DNA from: Sphingomonas sp. 28-66-16
GTDB taxonomy: Bacteria > Pseudomonadota > Alphaproteobacteria > Sphingomonadales > Sphingomonadaceae
DNA: 64,000 nucleotides
Direction of reading: 5' to 3'
Assembly (NCBI GenBank): GCA_002281485.1
Contig: NCGF01000007.1
Span: forward strand, 1 to 64,000
Within the stretch, counting starts at the first letter, position 1. Each line of letters opens with the position of its first letter. Below are positions 5,518 through 11,105 of this stretch, piece after piece. The position numbers and the translations under genes were made by a program. Under the pieces are notes generated by a model. The model saw nothing but the letters and a program-made list of their open reading frames with translations. It ran no database searches and was not told the DNA's origin.

Positions 5518-5820
5518 CACGCGCCTCCTTCGCCGTCGACTTTCGCGGCGTTTGTATTATGATCATAACATAGCCTTGGACGCAAGGGGGCGTGTGACCC
5601 GGTGTGCGAGCCGCGCCGCAGAGATTGAGAAACCAACCGGATCGTGCAAAACCGTCCGTCAATACGGTACTAAGTCACTAAAACTTCGAGCCGCAGCACG
5701 CAGAATGGCTGTGTGACATATTGTATCATAACATTTTACTATGGCTTACGTGTAAATTCGAATGGCGGCTCCCCGAACAGTCGAATAGCCGACCGCGATA
5801 AACAAAAGGGGAGGATTTAT
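5518..5820. promoter_or_regulatory. Divergent promoter region with candidate MarR operator
   Basis: This 303 bp AT-rich gap separates the leftward solute-binding-like gene from the rightward TonB receptor gene. A perfect 12-base palindrome TTATGATCATAA lies at 5557-5568. It overlaps a candidate leftward promoter: TTGCGT (complement of 5580-5585), 18 bases, CATAAT (complement of 5556-5561). Ten bases of the same site, ATCATAACAT (5562-5571), recur in the same orientation at 5725-5734, closer to the receptor gene. Palindromes of this size overlapping the -10 are typical of MarR operators, and a MarR gene lies in the leftward unit. The assignment is inference. The receptor gene is preceded by GGGGAGGA, 6 bases before its ATG. 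Confidence 0.5.
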
Positions 5821-8235
5821 ATGCGCACCGTTTTCGGCATTGCCGCTGCTTTGCTGGCTTCGACCAGCGCCTTTGCGCAAACCGCACCCGTTCAACCGGC
5901 GCCTGCACCCGCCGCGACCGACGAGGCACCCGGCGACATCGTCGTGACGGCCTCGAAGCGCGAACAGTCGCTTCAGGATGTCAGCATCGCGGTGAGCGCC
6001 GTCGGCGCCGACCGGCTGGCCACTGCGCAGGTCAACAACCTTCAGGATCTGCAGACGATCGTCCCGTCGGTGAATTTCGGCAGCGATTTCAACCAGGCAA
6101 AGATCTTCATCCGCGGCGTCGGCGCCAACACGTCGACGACCGGCAGCTCGACCGGCGTCGCGCTGCACGTCGACGGGGCTTATGTCGCGCGTGCCGAGGC
6201 GCAGTTGACCTCGCTGTTCGATCTCGAACGCGTCGAGGTGCTGCGCGGACCGCAGGGCACGCTTTATGGCCGCAACGCGGTGGGCGGATCGGTCAACCTG
6301 ATCACCGCCAAGCCGACGACCGAATTGTCGGGCTATGGGCGGCTGACCTATGGCAATTACAACCAGCTGGTCGCCGAAGGCGCGATCAGCGGCGAGATCA
6401 TCACCGGCGTGCGCGCGCGCCTTGCCGTGAAGACCGAAAATCGCGACGGTTTCGGCAGGAACCCCGTCACCGGCGGTGATATCGACGGCCTGAACCGCCG
6501 CATGGGCCGCGTCCAGCTCGACTTCGATCTGGGCCCGCGATCGACATTGTTGTTGAGCGGCGAATATTTCCGCCAGAACGACACCTCGGGCGCGATCCAT
6601 TATCTGCGGGCATCGTTTCCGGGCGTCGCGCGGCTCGCGCCGCTCGGGGTGGGCGGTTATGCGACCAACCCCCGCGATCTCGCCAGCGAATCCTATGTCG
6701 GCACCGACAGCGAGAGCTATGCGTTCACCGGCACCTATCATGTCGATCTGTCGGATAGCATCGGCATCACCAACATCGCCAATTATCGCCGCTTCAAGAC
6801 CTCGCTGATCCAGGATCTCGATCTCTCGGCGGTCGTCGATGCGCTCACCACCAACGGCCAGGCGACGACGATTCAGGAGCGCCGGATCGACAGCAAGCAA
6901 TGGTCGAACGAGCTTCAGCTCAACGTCAATACCGAGTTCGTGAAGGGCGTGGTCGGCTTCTATTATTTCGACGAACGCCAGCATCCGCGCGACACGGTCG
7001 GGCTGCAGGCCCGCAATGGCCTGCCCGGCAATATTCCGCTGCTGCAGGCCGCCGGTGTCCTCGACCAGGCCTATTTCAACTGCGGCTATAACCCCGGCAC
7101 CGTCACCGGGGGCGGCGTGATCGCGCCCAAGCGCGTCTGCGCCCGATCGAACCTCAACACCCAGGCTTACGCCCTGTTCGGCCAGATGAACGTGAGCCTC
7201 GGCATGCTGAGCGAGTCGCTCGACGGCGTGTCGATCAAGATCGGCGGCCGCTATAGCGACGAACATGTGTCGTCGGAAAACCCCTCGACGATCGTTGCGC
7301 GCAACGGACTCGGCCCGGTGCTGGTCAATACCGAGGCGAGCACGCACACCGAGCGCACCTTCCGCAACTTCTCGCCCGAAGCCGGGATCGAATGGAAGCC
7401 GAACCGCGATCTGCTCTTCTATTATACCTATTCGCAGGGCTTCAAGGCGGGCTCGGGCGAAAACGCCGCCGGCAGCACGACGATCGTCAATCCTGAAAAC
7501 ATCCAGAACCACGAACTGGGCGCCAAGGCCACGTTCGGACGGCTGTTGTCGGCCAATCTCGCGCTCTACAGCTATAATCTGCAGGGCCTCCAGCTCAACC
7601 GGACGATTTCGGGCGGCCCCGCCGGTTTCTCGACGATCTTCCAGAATGCCGCCGCCACCTCGGCCAAGGGCGTCGAGTTCGAGGTCTTCACGCGCCCGGC
7701 CGAGGGCTTCCGGCTCAATGCCGCCGTGTCGTACACCGACGCCCATTATGTCGATTACGTCACGCTCGATCCGCTTAATCCGGCCAACATCCTGACCGCG
7801 GGGTCGCCCGCATACAATGCGGTGACCAACCCCGATCCAACGGCCTTCGGCGCGCCCGGCGGCGGCAATATCCAGCTTGCCGGCAATGATACGCGTAACA
7901 GTCCGCGCTGGTCGTGGAACGTGCACGGCGAATATGACATCGACGCGCCGACGCTCAACGGCAAGTTCACGTTGAACGGCGACGTCTCGTACAAGGGGCA
8001 GACCTATTTCACCGAATATCAACGCGCGATCGAAGGCTCGCGCGCGTTCACGATGGTCGACTCGTCGCTGAACTATGTGAGCTACAACAAGAAATTCCAC
8101 GCCCAGGTCTTCGTCAAGAACATGTTCGACGTGTTGCGACCGAGCAGCACCTTCAGCCTCGCCACGGGCCGCCTGATCGGGCAGACGCTGCTGCCGCCGC
8201 GCACCTTCGGGGTCGCGTTCGGCTATAATTTCTGA
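5821..8235 (+). CDS. TonB-dependent outer membrane receptor
   Basis: An 804-residue outer membrane receptor that would import a ligand using TonB/ExbBD energy. The N-terminal signal peptide ends near ASTSAFAQ. A proline-rich linker and a TonB-box-like stretch GDIVVTASKREQSLQDV follow, typical of sphingomonad receptors. The plug domain shows IFIRGVGANTS and VEVLRGPQGTLYGRNAVGG. A long beta-barrel ends in GVAFGYNF with the terminal aromatic residue needed for barrel assembly. The ATG at 5821 is preceded by GGGGAGGA at good distance; an upstream extension in frame has no signal peptide. Adjacent genes are a divergent solute-binding-like protein with a MarR regulator and a convergent asparagine-synthetase-like gene. 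The ligand cannot be told from sequence. Confidence 0.94.
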   Translation: MRTVFGIAAALLASTSAFAQTAPVQPAPAPAATDEAPGDIVVTASKREQSLQDVSIAVSAVGADRLATAQVNNLQDLQTIVPSVNFGSDFNQAKIFIRGVGANTSTTGSSTGVALHVDGAYVARAEAQLTSLFDLERVEVLRGPQGTLYGRNAVGGSVNLITAKPTTELSGYGRLTYGNYNQLVAEGAISGEIITGVRARLAVKTENRDGFGRNPVTGGDIDGLNRRMGRVQLDFDLGPRSTLLLSGEYFRQNDTSGAIHYLRASFPGVARLAPLGVGGYATNPRDLASESYVGTDSESYAFTGTYHVDLSDSIGITNIANYRRFKTSLIQDLDLSAVVDALTTNGQATTIQERRIDSKQWSNELQLNVNTEFVKGVVGFYYFDERQHPRDTVGLQARNGLPGNIPLLQAAGVLDQAYFNCGYNPGTVTGGGVIAPKRVCARSNLNTQAYALFGQMNVSLGMLSESLDGVSIKIGGRYSDEHVSSENPSTIVARNGLGPVLVNTEASTHTERTFRNFSPEAGIEWKPNRDLLFYYTYSQGFKAGSGENAAGSTTIVNPENIQNHELGAKATFGRLLSANLALYSYNLQGLQLNRTISGGPAGFSTIFQNAAATSAKGVEFEVFTRPAEGFRLNAAVSYTDAHYVDYVTLDPLNPANILTAGSPAYNAVTNPDPTAFGAPGGGNIQLAGNDTRNSPRWSWNVHGEYDIDAPTLNGKFTLNGDVSYKGQTYFTEYQRAIEGSRAFTMVDSSLNYVSYNKKFHAQVFVKNMFDVLRPSSTFSLATGRLIGQTLLPPRTFGVAFGYNF

Positions 8236-8293: not shown

Positions 8294-9898
8294 TCAGCGT
8301 GTTGTTGCCGCGGTGATCGCTCGCAGGCTCGCCTCCAGCGCGGCGATCGCGATCAGATAGAGATCGCCGGCGTCTTCCGCGCCGGCCCGGCGCGCCTCCA
8401 GCAATCGGCGCGCGGCGCCCGGCCTGACGAAACCGGCGGCCGTCAACGCGCGCGCCTCGATCAGATCCTCGAGCACACCGCAATCGGCGAAGGCGCGGTC
8501 GAACAGCGGCGTGAAGCTTTCGGGGGAGGGGTCGCGTGCGATGCGTTCGTCGACCCCCTGCACTGCGAGCAGTTCGGCCAGCACGCGCCGATCGGCGCGC
8601 CATTCGAGCGGCAGGGCATGAGCATAGCCCGCCAGTTCGGGCGAAACCAGCGGATGAACCGGCCACAGGCCATGCCGGAGCATCTGCGCGGCGACCCCGG
8701 CGACGGCGTCCATCGCGCTCGGCTGGGCGAAATGCTGGAGTTGGCGGGCCGCCGCTTCGGAACGCGCCGCGCCGTCGACCAGCACGAGATCGGTGAACAG
8801 CTCGGCGCGCAGCCGCGCCGCGGCCGGATCCTCCACCGCAGCATTTTCTGGCGCATCGAGGCCATCCTCTGCCTCGTCGCGGTAGCGCGCGAACAGTTCG
8901 TCGCCGCCAAGGCCGGTCAAAAAGGTGCGGCAACCCTGCGCGACGGCCTCGCGATAGAGCCGGTCGAACGGCTCATATTGTAACTCCTCCCAGGGGGCGA
9001 AGGGCACGGACGGATCGGCGAGGCGCGCCGTCCAGTTCGGCATCTCGGCGGCAGCAAGCGGGGTATCGGCGGCGACGCGATCGATGGCGATCGCTTGCCG
9101 GCGCGCGGCCTGGGCTTCCCCGGCGGCGCCGGGCAGGATGATCCCGAAGCTGCGCACCTCATAGCCGAGAGCGGCTACCATGGTCGTGACTGCGGCCGAG
9201 TCCATCCCGCCGCTCAGCCCGCAGGCGATCGGCGCTGGCCCGGGTGGCAACGCCCGGTCGATCGTCTGCCGCAGCAACGCGCCAAAGCCCGCCGCCGGAT
9301 CGACATCGGCGCGCAGCACGCGCGGGTAATCGGGCGGATGCGCACCATAGGGGCGCACTCGCCACCCGGTGCCGCTAGTCCAGCGCGCGTCGTGACGCGC
9401 TGCCAGCCGCCAGAGATCGGCGAACAGCGTCTGTGGGCCGTAAGGCAGATCGAAGGTGCGGAGATAATGCGCGGCCAGTTCGACATCGAGCCGCGGCCGG
9501 ATCCAGCGATACAGCGCGACGGGGTCCCAATGCGCGCGCGCGCCGGTAGCATCGCCGGTCAGAAACAGCGGGACAGTCGCCCAGCGGCTCGACCGAAGCT
9601 CGATCGTGCCCCCCGATGCTTCTAGCCACAGCCAGTGGAGCGGCCAATTCTCGGTTTCGGCGCGGGCCTGAGCGACGAGGTCTTCATCGCCGTGCTGGAG
9701 ATATAGCGAACGTTCGTCGAGCGCGGCGGCCGGATGCTCGAGGATCGCAAGCGCGATATGATCGACGCCCGACGAGAAAGCGTCGACCGTCAGCATCGGA
9801 TGATCGAGCGGCACGATCGAGTCATCGCCCCGGACGAGCTTCCCGTCGGCACATTGCCAACTCCCCGTGCCCTTTGCCGTGAAGTGCAGCGCGAGCAC
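8294..9898 (-). CDS. Asparagine-synthetase-like ATP-dependent amide/isopeptide ligase
   Basis: A 534-residue protein of the asparagine synthetase B fold. The C-terminal ATP-pyrophosphatase domain has SGGMDS (about residues 229-234) and TGLGGDELFARY (about 328-339), the two signature motifs for adenylating a carboxylate. The N-terminal domain begins VLALHFTAKGTGSW and has no cysteine at position 2, so it cannot be a normal glutaminase. Lasso-peptide cyclases and some beta-lactam synthetases share this state and use an internal amine instead of ammonia. The start is probably the GTG at 9898, 22 bases after the stop of a small peptide gene; no good ribosome binding site is visible and an ATG at 10003 would overlap that gene by 83 bases. 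With the peptide gene it forms a two-gene unit. Acting on that peptide is inference. Confidence 0.75.
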   Translation of the reverse strand: MLALHFTAKGTGSWQCADGKLVRGDDSIVPLDHPMLTVDAFSSGVDHIALAILEHPAAALDERSLYLQHGDEDLVAQARAETENWPLHWLWLEASGGTIELRSSRWATVPLFLTGDATGARAHWDPVALYRWIRPRLDVELAAHYLRTFDLPYGPQTLFADLWRLAARHDARWTSGTGWRVRPYGAHPPDYPRVLRADVDPAAGFGALLRQTIDRALPPGPAPIACGLSGGMDSAAVTTMVAALGYEVRSFGIILPGAAGEAQAARRQAIAIDRVAADTPLAAAEMPNWTARLADPSVPFAPWEELQYEPFDRLYREAVAQGCRTFLTGLGGDELFARYRDEAEDGLDAPENAAVEDPAAARLRAELFTDLVLVDGAARSEAAARQLQHFAQPSAMDAVAGVAAQMLRHGLWPVHPLVSPELAGYAHALPLEWRADRRVLAELLAVQGVDERIARDPSPESFTPLFDRAFADCGVLEDLIEARALTAAGFVRPGAARRLLEARRAGAEDAGDLYLIAIAALEASLRAITAATTR

Positions 9899-9920
9899 GG
9901 GCGATCGAGTCGGCGCAGGG

Positions 9921-10121
9921 CTAGTTGTTGCGCTTCTGTTTGGCGTCGGCGGTATTGCCCTTCTTGTCGCGGCGATGCTCGCCCCAGATGGCGACGAGCG
10001 CATGGCCGAGCCGCGCGCGATGCAGTTCGGGCATGAAATCGCTCATTGGGTCGATCAGCGCGGCGGGCTGCTGGGCCGTCAAAACGCGCGTGGGGAGTGG
10101 TCTGCTAACGAGCTTGAGCAT
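9921..10121 (-). CDS. Small basic peptide of 66 residues, candidate substrate of the downstream ligase
   Basis: This short frame starts at an ATG at 10121 preceded by GGAGG with 5-base spacing, one of the best ribosome binding sites in the window, which argues for real translation. The product opens MLKLVSRPLPTRVLTAQQPA, has a central stretch MSDFMPELHRARLGHALVAI and ends in a strongly basic, hydrophilic tail (EHRRDKKGNTADAKQKRNN). It has no signal peptide and no known domain that I recognise. It lies 22 bases upstream of an asparagine-synthetase-like gene on the same strand, the arrangement of a RiPP precursor and its maturation enzyme. It does not show the Thr-x-Gly boundary and acidic ring residue at core position 7-9 of ordinary lasso precursors. 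A small accessory or DNA-binding protein is also possible. Confidence 0.55.
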   Translation of the reverse strand: MLKLVSRPLPTRVLTAQQPAALIDPMSDFMPELHRARLGHALVAIWGEHRRDKKGNTADAKQKRNN

Positions 10122-10511
10122 CGATGCCTCCATTGTTTGTCGGGGAGGAAATCGTGTCATGGCTTGTCCCTGCCGGCAACGTGAAGTCGAACGGAAACGG
10201 ATCATTGTACCGCTCAAGTGGTTGGACCAAAAATAACCACGCTGCCGGTGTCGTTCGGCTGTCCGAACGAAGGTGGCACTCCTTTGATACTCGCATGAAT
10301 TGGGCCGAAGCTGGTGCAATAGATCGCTGTACATTGGTCTATGTCAATCCGATCGACCTGGGTCTTGGCAGACATTCGTGCCAATTCCTTTGGCTGCGCC
10401 CCGGCGCTCCGGCACGATGCGCGAAAAAGTCTGCGCCGCGCGAAGGGTTTTTGCGGCTCATCCGTGATATCATTCGGGAGGCGCAAGCTGGGGCGGAGTG
10501 ACGGTAGCTTG
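10122..10511. promoter_or_regulatory. Divergent intergenic region between peptide gene and ECF sigma gene
   Basis: A 390 bp gap with lower GC than its neighbours. A perfect inverted repeat TCGTTCGG-CTGT-CCGAACGA lies at 10251-10270 (8-base arms, 4-base centre), without a T-tract, so it looks more like an operator than a terminator. A minus-strand -10 candidate TACAAT (complement of 10204-10209) sits about 80 bases before the peptide gene start; no strong -35 accompanies it. Open frames running through the gap (for example the extension of the sigma gene back to 10341) have unconvincing residue composition and were not taken as coding. Confidence 0.4.
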
Positions 10512-11105
10512 GTGGAGCAGGTCGGTATCGCCGGCGACGAGGCGGATGGCGATGCGGCGCTGATGGCGCGGATCGCGGCGCGCGATGCCGCCGCGTTCCG
10601 GTTGCTCGCCGATCGGCATGCGCTGGCGCTGCGCCGGATCGCTTACCGCATGCTCGGCGATGCGAGCGAGGCCGAGGACGTCGCGCAGGAAACGCTGGCG
10701 CGTCTGTGGCATCACGCCGCGCGCTGGCGCCCCGGCGCGTTCGGGGTGGCGGCGTGGCTCAACCGGATCGCGGTCAATCTGTGCCTTGATCGGCTGCGAC
10801 GGGCGCGGTTTCACGGCGGCGGGGAAATTCCAGACCGCCCCGACGAGACGCCGATCGCCGATGCGGCGATGCTCGTGGCGCAGGAGCGCGCGGCGGTGGT
10901 CGCGGCGGTCGCGGCGCTTCCCGATCGCCAGCGGGCGGCGATCGTGCTGACCTATTATGAGGATTTGTCGAACGCCATGGCCGCCGATGCGCTCCAGATG
11001 AACGTCAAGGCGTTCGAATCGCTGCTTCATCGCGCGCGGCTGGCGCTGCGGACGGCGCTGGCGGCCGCCGGCGTCGTCGGTCCCGCCGATGCGAGGGTGG
11101 CATGA
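10512..11105 (+). CDS. ECF-type RNA polymerase sigma factor
   Basis: A group IV sigma factor of about 197 residues. Region 2 is seen as AFRLLADRHALALRRIAYRM followed by GDASEAEDVAQETLARLW. Region 4 is seen as ALPDRQRAAIVLTYYEDLSN and the helix-turn-helix end VKAFESLLHRARLALR. Such factors recruit RNA polymerase to a small regulon, usually under control of a membrane anti-sigma factor. The start is uncertain: GTG at 10512 (or TTG at 10509) gives a normal-length product, with GGAG 13 or 10 bases upstream. The longer frame from 10341 adds 57 residues unlike sigma factors. The next gene overlaps by 4 bases (ATGA) and looks like its membrane partner. The target promoters are unknown. Confidence 0.9.
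   Translation: MEQVGIAGDEADGDAALMARIAARDAAAFRLLADRHALALRRIAYRMLGDASEAEDVAQETLARLWHHAARWRPGAFGVAAWLNRIAVNLCLDRLRRARFHGGGEIPDRPDETPIADAAMLVAQERAAVVAAVAALPDRQRAAIVLTYYEDLSNAMAADALQMNVKAFESLLHRARLALRTALAAAGVVGPADARVA

Follow-up and report, generated by a model that had tools for sequence, protein, structure and literature searches.

A small peptide gene and an asparagine-synthetase-like enzyme gene in Sphingomonas: a candidate two-gene system for tying rings in ribosomal peptides

Introduction

Enzymes of the asparagine-synthetase fold bind ATP at an SGGxDS loop and adenylate a carboxylate, which is then attacked by an amine. Beta-lactam and carbapenam synthetases form intramolecular amides, and their substrates are small molecules. 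In lasso systems (McjA/B/C type), a small ribosomal precursor is encoded beside an asparagine-synthetase-fold enzyme; the likely acyl donor is an acidic side chain, and the ring spans 7–8 residues. Graspetides are made by joining Lys and acidic residues, and the enzymes responsible are of the ATP-grasp type. Graspetides of the microviridin type carry side-chain macrolactams within the chain (PMC13097080), also with several cores per precursor (PMC5934393). Three members of the asparagine-synthetase superfamily, PesC, TsrC, and ScdTA, act on ribosomal peptides, whose C-termini they amidate or nitrilate (PMC13060819). By the count of the same preprint, asparagine-synthetase-like genes in the vicinity of RiPP elements number ~3,800; ~3,500 are lasso genes and ~300 are uncharacterised.

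Here, we describe a pair of genes in Sphingomonas sp. 28-66-16, found in a 64,000-nt stretch of DNA (the window) that is part of a 3.1 Mb genome in 51 contigs, 86% complete. The pair shares its arrangement with lasso systems, and the acidic acyl donor and 7- to 8-residue ring that we propose are also those of lasso systems. Side-chain macrolactams within the chain and several cores in one precursor (in some relatives) would be features in common with graspetides; unlike graspetide enzymes, the window enzyme is of the asparagine-synthetase type by Pfam and by fold and is no ATP-grasp ligase. Its proposed substrate is a peptide, unlike those of the beta-lactam and carbapenam synthetases, and its proposed reaction differs from that of PesC, TsrC, and ScdTA. 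The pair, with the near-fixed spacing of Lys and acidic residue in the peptides of its distant relatives in many bacteria, suggests an undescribed way of tying rings in ribosomal peptides without the usual leader-cutting protease.

The Sphingomonas gene pair

The precursor-like peptide gene occupies positions 9921..10121 on the minus strand, runs from ATG to TAG, and encodes 66 residues; it is recognised by its translation and by the recurrence of its position and motif in relatives. A GGAGG ribosome-binding site, read from the sequence, lies directly 5′ of the ATG (10127..10131, minus strand). Exactly 22 nt separate the peptide stop from the GTG start, at 9898, of a gene on the same strand (8294..9898) that encodes an asparagine-synthetase-like enzyme of 534 residues without the glutaminase Cys2. 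An earlier note on this DNA had claimed a peptide gene with a GGAGG site on the enzyme's strand, 22 bases before the enzyme, and the coordinates (10121-9921 and 9898-8294) confirm the pair. A mechanical ORF call makes the enzyme 569 residues long, beginning at 10003 within the peptide gene, which is very likely not the true start.

The C-terminal end of the peptide is KKGNTADAKQKRNN. The Lys53-x5-Asp59 motif (KKGNTAD; 9945..9965, minus strand) contains the proposed crosslink partners, encoded by AAG (9965-9963) and GAC (9947-9945), and their spacing is the one kept across the family. Two Lys residues adjoin at this place: the first stands to Asp59 at i+6, and the second is followed by Gly, like the KG of its clade, the Asp then being at i+5. 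The peptide has no match in Pfam or NCBIfam at E≤1. The earlier note saw no clear acidic ring residue and offered the segment HRARLGHALVAIWGEH as a feature to align. Neither point stands: Asp59, six residues after Lys53, is at a position conserved in relatives, and HRARLGHALVAIWGEH has no trustworthy counterpart among the relatives' peptides, the conserved feature being the C-terminal Lys-x5-Asp instead.

The enzyme

The Pfam family Asn_synthase matches the window enzyme with E=1.3e-12, and this enzyme is the only match at E≤0.001 within its own genome. The SGGMDS pyrophosphate loop (residues 229–234; 9197..9214, minus strand) has the SGGxDS form found in 27/27 family rows, and the GGDEL motif (residues 331–335; 8894..8908, minus strand) was placed by alignments. 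GLGGDELFARY is also present and the protein begins V-L-A-L, in agreement with the earlier description of both motifs in an enzyme without a start cysteine. The N-terminal nucleophile Cys2 of glutamine-dependent asparagine synthetase B is thus missing from the window enzyme. Across the family, 24 of the 27 rows have another residue at position 2, two rows lack the start, and in the remaining one (genome G712), which can be read with an MCG start, Cys2 is uncertain; an MCG start is seen in 17/26 of the other rows used for comparison.

Searching PDB sequences with the window enzyme gave nothing useful. An AlphaFold2 model (pLDDT 83.1, pTM 0.86) has a predicted fold that matches, over the full length, TsnB9, beta-lactam synthetase, carbapenam synthetase, and AsnB, with 13–16% identity to the beta-lactam and carbapenam synthetases in the fold alignments. 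Family (Pfam) and fold match thus both give the window enzyme the asparagine-synthetase fold of a lasso cyclase, and its role as a cyclase is predicted. In a phylogenetic tree, the 27 family enzymes all fall on the same side of a 100/99 branch, which is recovered in 100% of 200 bootstrap trees; on the other side are seven AsnB and four lasso-type cyclases, the latter named from adjoining PF13471 genes or model scores rather than from tested products. The window and G712 enzymes are long branches, and identity to the window enzyme is 20–31% for six family rows and at most 32% overall.

The lysine of the AsnB K-x-G-F motif, which we take to be catalytic, has an aligned Lys in clade I (see below), in the Mesorhizobium-Xanthomonas-Bradyrhizobium group, and in the R. 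binae group. It is replaced by Arg in G289, G232b, two Streptomyces, and the R. indicum group; by Pro in the window (SPESF), Pseudolabrys, and Streptomyces NBC_00334; by Ser in the Gemmatimonadetes row; and by His in G712. With Pro at this place, and Arg, Pro, or Ser in its nearest neighbors, the enzyme of the window may be weak or altered.

Relatives and their distribution

An enzyme following a small same-strand frame was also found in Sphingomonas, Gluconacetobacter, Pseudolabrys, Rhizobium, Bradyrhizobium, Mesorhizobium, Xanthomonas, and Streptomyces, with ~20–32% identity to the window enzyme, and the enzyme occurs in a Gemmatimonadetes bin as well. Within the genus, a homologue from G100 used as the query matched 18/295 genomes. 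Ten of these form clade I, including G087 (frame-shifted) and G060 (a remnant); three copies resemble clade II, the window's own clade, namely the second copies of G232 and G233 and that of G289; and six genomes have weaker matches only, to other asparagine-synthetase or lasso-type genes. The Gluconacetobacter sacchari enzyme falls inside clade I in the tree.

An alignment query of genome contigs kept 80 loci, of which L069–L074 belong to the family; the others, judged from their scores and starts, are generic asparagine synthetases or different cyclases; a query of the contigs with a single protein found no relative. A plasmid search with a Mesorhizobium query returned 54 records (Rhizobium 33, Bradyrhizobium 13, Mesorhizobium 3, Streptomyces 3, Aminobacter 1, and Xanthomonas 1). 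Searching 240 genomes of the class added one member, G712. No new member was found in 249 genomes of the phylum, none beyond the query carriers in the families of two carriers (151 and 140 genomes), and none among viral contigs and phages. The family is rare and patchy. Broken or shifted enzyme or peptide frames occur at L034/L024 (G087), L015 6727-7011 (G060), L173 3709-3876 (B. japonicum), and L182 (Bradyrhizobium sp. 41S5); either the system has been lost or is decaying in places, or these are assembly errors.

A conserved Lys-acidic motif in the peptides

The scan of 31 loci, near-copies counted, took every ATG frame on the enzyme's strand that was 30 residues or longer and stopped no more than 130 nt before or 30 nt after the enzyme start; each frame was read from its first ATG, and the motif could lie anywhere in it. 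K-x5-D was found at 23/31 loci, K-x6-D without K-x5-D at 5/31 (G046, G032, G244, G232a, and G233a), and K-x5-E at 1/31 (G712), i.e., a motif-bearing frame ends within 130 nt upstream of the enzyme at 29/31 loci. At the two loci missed by the rule, the peptide lies farther upstream: in Rhizobium Pop5, an annotated 52-residue peptide 259 nt upstream holds KGGKPGD, and in Rhodanobacteraceae ZG21-1, a peptide 448 nt upstream has K-x6-D and shares NPFAIQLDxPM with the Xanthomonas sacchari peptide. Two frames qualified at 4/31 loci, with the motif in one of the two only. G712 (L177, about 7194), with its MCG-readable enzyme and K-x5-E peptide, is an outlying member.

Statistics were computed on 26 non-redundant peptides. 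G046, both G233 copies, R. johnstonii, and Pop5 were left out as near-copies; L069, where the contig begins inside the enzyme gene, and G060, a broken remnant, had been dropped before counting, as were most of the near-identical R. leguminosarum-type plasmids (20 annotated plasmid stretches were used, against 54 records). Several start codons were picked by eye, the L027 protein entered with its second part alone, and the ZG21-1 peptide was chosen for its resemblance to that of X. sacchari rather than by rule. K-x5-D occurs in 21/26 peptides, which are related in groups (about a dozen types by eye) and are therefore not 26 independent events; 5.8 were expected, with a maximum of 13 in 2,000 shuffles. 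In the last 25 residues, the count is 20 against 2.4 expected, with a maximum of 7 in 500 shuffles. The other five peptides have Asp at i+7 (four) or Glu at i+6 (one), such that the arrangement is present in 26/26; the spacing is not absolute, since one clade uses i+7. Of the other K-D spacings between 1 and 13, none exceeds its own shuffle maximum over whole peptides, with spacings 3 and 5 somewhat raised (12 and 10 vs ~6). The residues one and two positions before the conserved Lys are variable, Ala or Ser often follows the conserved Asp, and the length from the motif to the end is mostly 13–19 residues.

Generic asparagine-synthetase loci served as the control. They were drawn from 73 of the 74 loci L075-L148 (all but L106). 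Upstream sequence sufficed at 69 of these, and a small upstream frame of 30–140 residues is present at 22/69. K-x5-6-[DE] in the last 25 residues was found in 0/22 of those frames, in bacteria that differ in base composition and include one lasso-type locus (L147), with frames >140 residues excluded. For the window peptide itself, shuffling the whole sequence gave a match to the nearest-clade cores as good as that of the real C-terminus in 13/5,000 cases, and shuffling only the last 30 residues did so in 40/5,000. K-x5-D by itself arose within the last 25 residues in 408/5,000 shuffles; the window alone therefore proves little, and the comparison with relatives carries the case. A prediction set beforehand for six further plasmid loci near known ones found K-x5-D in 5/6, the sixth (Bradyrhizobium sp. 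41S5) being frame-shifted after the Lys; because these loci are near relatives, the support is weak.

Position and motif across these loci strongly support the pairing of peptide gene and enzyme gene, and the peptide is likely the enzyme's substrate. The earlier note had proposed a candidate RiPP-type pair, provided that both genes are conserved together elsewhere, which the 29/31 count and the two more distant peptides bear out; relatives with no small frame upstream, which it had set against its own reading, were looked for and not seen, and the motif was absent from the generic-locus frames.

Tandem cores

In G289 (L027 499-1386), a 296-residue frame has six cores in its second part, KGAAGQDAQNRRN once and KGTAGQDAQNRRN five times, encoded by a 72-base repeat unit with 5.5 copies and 88% matches. 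The first part (~150 residues, globular-looking) has no match in Pfam or the PDB. K-x5-D also occurs in 4/5 of the linkers between cores (KGAEEDD or KGAEEAD) and at one more place in the first part; these are further sites, or else the motif alone is not enough. Given these linkers, the motif by itself cannot tell which pair is joined. G232/G233 (L035/L036) have three cores, KGTAGQD, KRISGTD, and KGTAGQD, and the Pseudolabrys peptide ends in KGTGTEDAKSRKKKASEK. The end of the window peptide, KKGNTADAKQKRNN, is in register with these cores, the Asp, the following Ala, and the first Lys coinciding.

Leader peptidase and recognition element

Genome-wide, the leader-peptidase family PF13471 is absent from four carriers: the window's own genome (G000, 86% complete), G289, and G1144 and G1146, in which the loci of Rhodanobacteraceae ZG21-1 and Gluconacetobacter sacchari lie. 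It is absent from 12/12 plasmid records, in a search of those records alone. PF13471 is present somewhere in G712 and in G1142, G1143, and G1145 (the Gemmatimonadetes, Pseudolabrys, and Mesorhizobium loci), and elsewhere in the genome in 10/10 clade I genomes of the genus vs 130/295 genus-wide. Because all ten hold it, a trans-acting peptidase is possible in clade I. For that clade the association speaks against our reading, and it is weakened by G. sacchari, which falls inside clade I and has no PF13471. This excess prompted us to consider lasso processing in trans, which we rejected on account of the four carriers without the family, one of them in clade I.

The RRE/B1 family PF05402, in a Pfam search that atypical RREs could escape, is absent from G000, G289, G1144, and G100 (the single clade I genome of the genus in this test) and from 12/12 plasmid records; G1146 has one, and G712, G1143, and G1145 also have it. 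No named B1 or B2 was found among the annotated neighbors of 14 plasmid stretches, where annotation is incomplete. The earlier note had reported no neighboring protease and pointed to the rest of the genome as the place to look for B1/B2; in G000 (86% complete), both families are absent. Among the 26 aligned peptides, no Thr-x boundary with a small first core residue is fixed, and a few single peptides can be read in that way. The lasso-cyclase models NF033535 and NF033561 give 19–40 bits or no match for the members of the window family that were scanned, vs 207–268 bits for three lasso-type cyclases of the same genus and 84 bits for a fourth. In contrast to the window family, the small frame upstream of the enzyme at L147 (Bifidobacterium reuteri DSM 23975), MKDYVPPVVEVIASFKEATNGVWFG..., could pass for an ordinary lasso precursor, having a YxxP motif and Thr two residues before Gly.

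Neighboring genes

The convergent neighbor of the window pair (5713..8235, plus strand) encodes a TonB-dependent receptor by Pfam. Such a receptor also lies within the fetched stretch of 3/31 other loci (L074, L190, and L011): it adjoins the G. sacchari pair, ending 605 nt upstream of the enzyme, and is farther away at the second G232 pair (~3 kb) and at the G100 pair (~5 kb). Two receptor queries found none at E≤1e-3 in the other 28 loci; the stretches searched are 8–18 kb long. TonB receptors are common in these bacteria, which makes the link weak, and a functional link was considered and set aside with the receptor at only 3/31 loci. The divergent neighbor (10341..11105, plus strand) encodes an ECF-type sigma factor by Pfam and NCBIfam, with nothing similar at E≤1e-3 in the 31 loci of relatives.

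Several rhizobial copies adjoin genes for an APH-type phosphotransferase, a GNAT acetyltransferase, a GntR regulator, an ABC transporter, an acyl-homoserine-lactone synthase, or LuxR, and an ABC transporter gene stands beside two Streptomyces copies. These tailoring, transport, and signalling neighbors are not universal, and none is beside the window pair; where they occur, they would suit an exported, tailored peptide under density control. On plasmids of Rhizobium and one Bradyrhizobium, the pair lies a few kilobases from acyl-homoserine-lactone synthase genes (L167 4685-6515, L168 4503-6590, L176 5523-6870, L183, L184, and L173); rhiA is also present in L167 and L176, and nifHDKE adjoins the L176 copy. 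An APH-type phosphotransferase gene follows the enzyme gene at L162 6563-7986, L173 5253-6140, L174 5475-6838, and L175 5317-6677, with a GNAT acetyltransferase gene too at 3/4 of these loci; since the residue after the conserved Asp is Ser at all four, phosphorylation could be a tailoring step. The Xanthomonas sacchari plasmid copy (L163 2513-8938) has an oligopeptide symporter gene upstream and a convergent S9 peptidase gene downstream, which might serve uptake or processing of the product.

Possible mechanisms

We propose that the small gene encodes a precursor whose C-terminal stretch would present a Lys and, six residues on, an Asp. The enzyme, an asparagine-synthetase-fold ligase that would lack the ammonia-making half-reaction, would use ATP to adenylate the Asp side chain, Glu taking this role as acyl donor in G712. 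The side-chain amine of the Lys would attack the activated Asp, with loss of water, to give a 7-residue macrolactam (8 in one subclade). With the ring inside the chain, leader cleavage would not be required first, which would explain both the absent leader peptidase and the several cores in one protein. We infer Lys Nζ as the nucleophile, and likewise any export or later cleavage of the product. Against this mechanism count the Pro at the lysine position of the window enzyme, the second Lys of the window peptide, the i+7 spacing of one clade, the K-x5-D linkers of L027, the PF13471 genes of the clade I genomes, and the possible MCG start and the Glu of G712. A two-gene RiPP-type system making a Lys-Asp side-chain lactam is, from the sequence comparisons, the best mechanism and in our judgement a reasonably probable one.

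A lasso-like alternative, in which a protease cuts before the Lys, the alpha-amine of Lys1 joins Asp7 (or Asp8), and the C-terminal tail is threaded, strikes us as unlikely. The mostly 13–19 residues from motif to end and the ring sizes of 7–8 do resemble lasso cores, whose core and ring sizes are comparable, and PF13471 occurs somewhere in all ten clade I genomes of the genus. The invariant Lys is better explained by side-chain chemistry, since the residues so far observed to open a lasso ring are Gly, Cys, Ser, Ala, and, most recently, Asn (PMC12670498). Unlike lasso systems, moreover, the window family has a conserved Lys and no fixed small first residue, has up to six cores in one chain (L027), has enzymes on a branch separate from the four lasso-type cyclases, and includes the four carrier genomes without PF13471, that of G. 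sacchari in clade I among them. The mismatch to an ordinary lasso system claimed in the earlier note is therefore upheld.

The enzyme might instead activate the Asp for a partner other than Lys, i.e., an external amine, ammonia, or a backbone nitrogen (giving an aspartimide), with the Lys only aiding binding. Amidation or nitrilation of peptide C-termini by fold relatives (PMC13060819) and the frequent Ala or Ser after the Asp would fit this doubtful reading, which leaves an invariant Lys at one spacing unexplained and has no glutaminase Cys2 to supply ammonia; moreover, RiPP aspartimides come from a methyltransferase-related enzyme (PMC13001092). That the peptide is no substrate at all, and is a regulatory or unrelated frame beside the enzyme, is very improbable: the ease with which shuffles of the window peptide yield K-x5-D near the end is outweighed by the conservation of position and motif over many clades, by the tandem cores, and by the motif's absence from the 22 control frames.

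Beyond the Lys-Asp lactam itself, we are evenly balanced on the broader proposal of an undescribed RiPP class, whose ligases would staple Lys(i) to Asp(i+6) in uncleaved precursors with one or tandem cores, independently of a lasso leader peptidase, and which would be patchy in Pseudomonadota and Actinomycetota, frequently plasmid-borne, and next to quorum-sensing genes in rhizobia. Our literature search found no asparagine-synthetase-type enzyme with a Lys-Asp side-chain bridge among the matches listed; its scope misses most subscription papers, making this weak evidence of novelty.

Significance

If the Lys-Asp lactam is true, asparagine-synthetase-type enzymes would gain a second mode of cyclising peptides, in-chain and without a leader peptidase, in minimal two-gene systems with precursors as short as 31 residues. 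How the asparagine-synthetase fold chooses its nucleophile would become directly testable, and the pair would offer a compact peptide-stapling tool. Some genes labelled "asparagine synthase-related", at present unexplained by annotation, would thereby gain a purpose. The rhizobial copies near acyl-homoserine-lactone synthases suggest density-controlled peptides on symbiosis plasmids.
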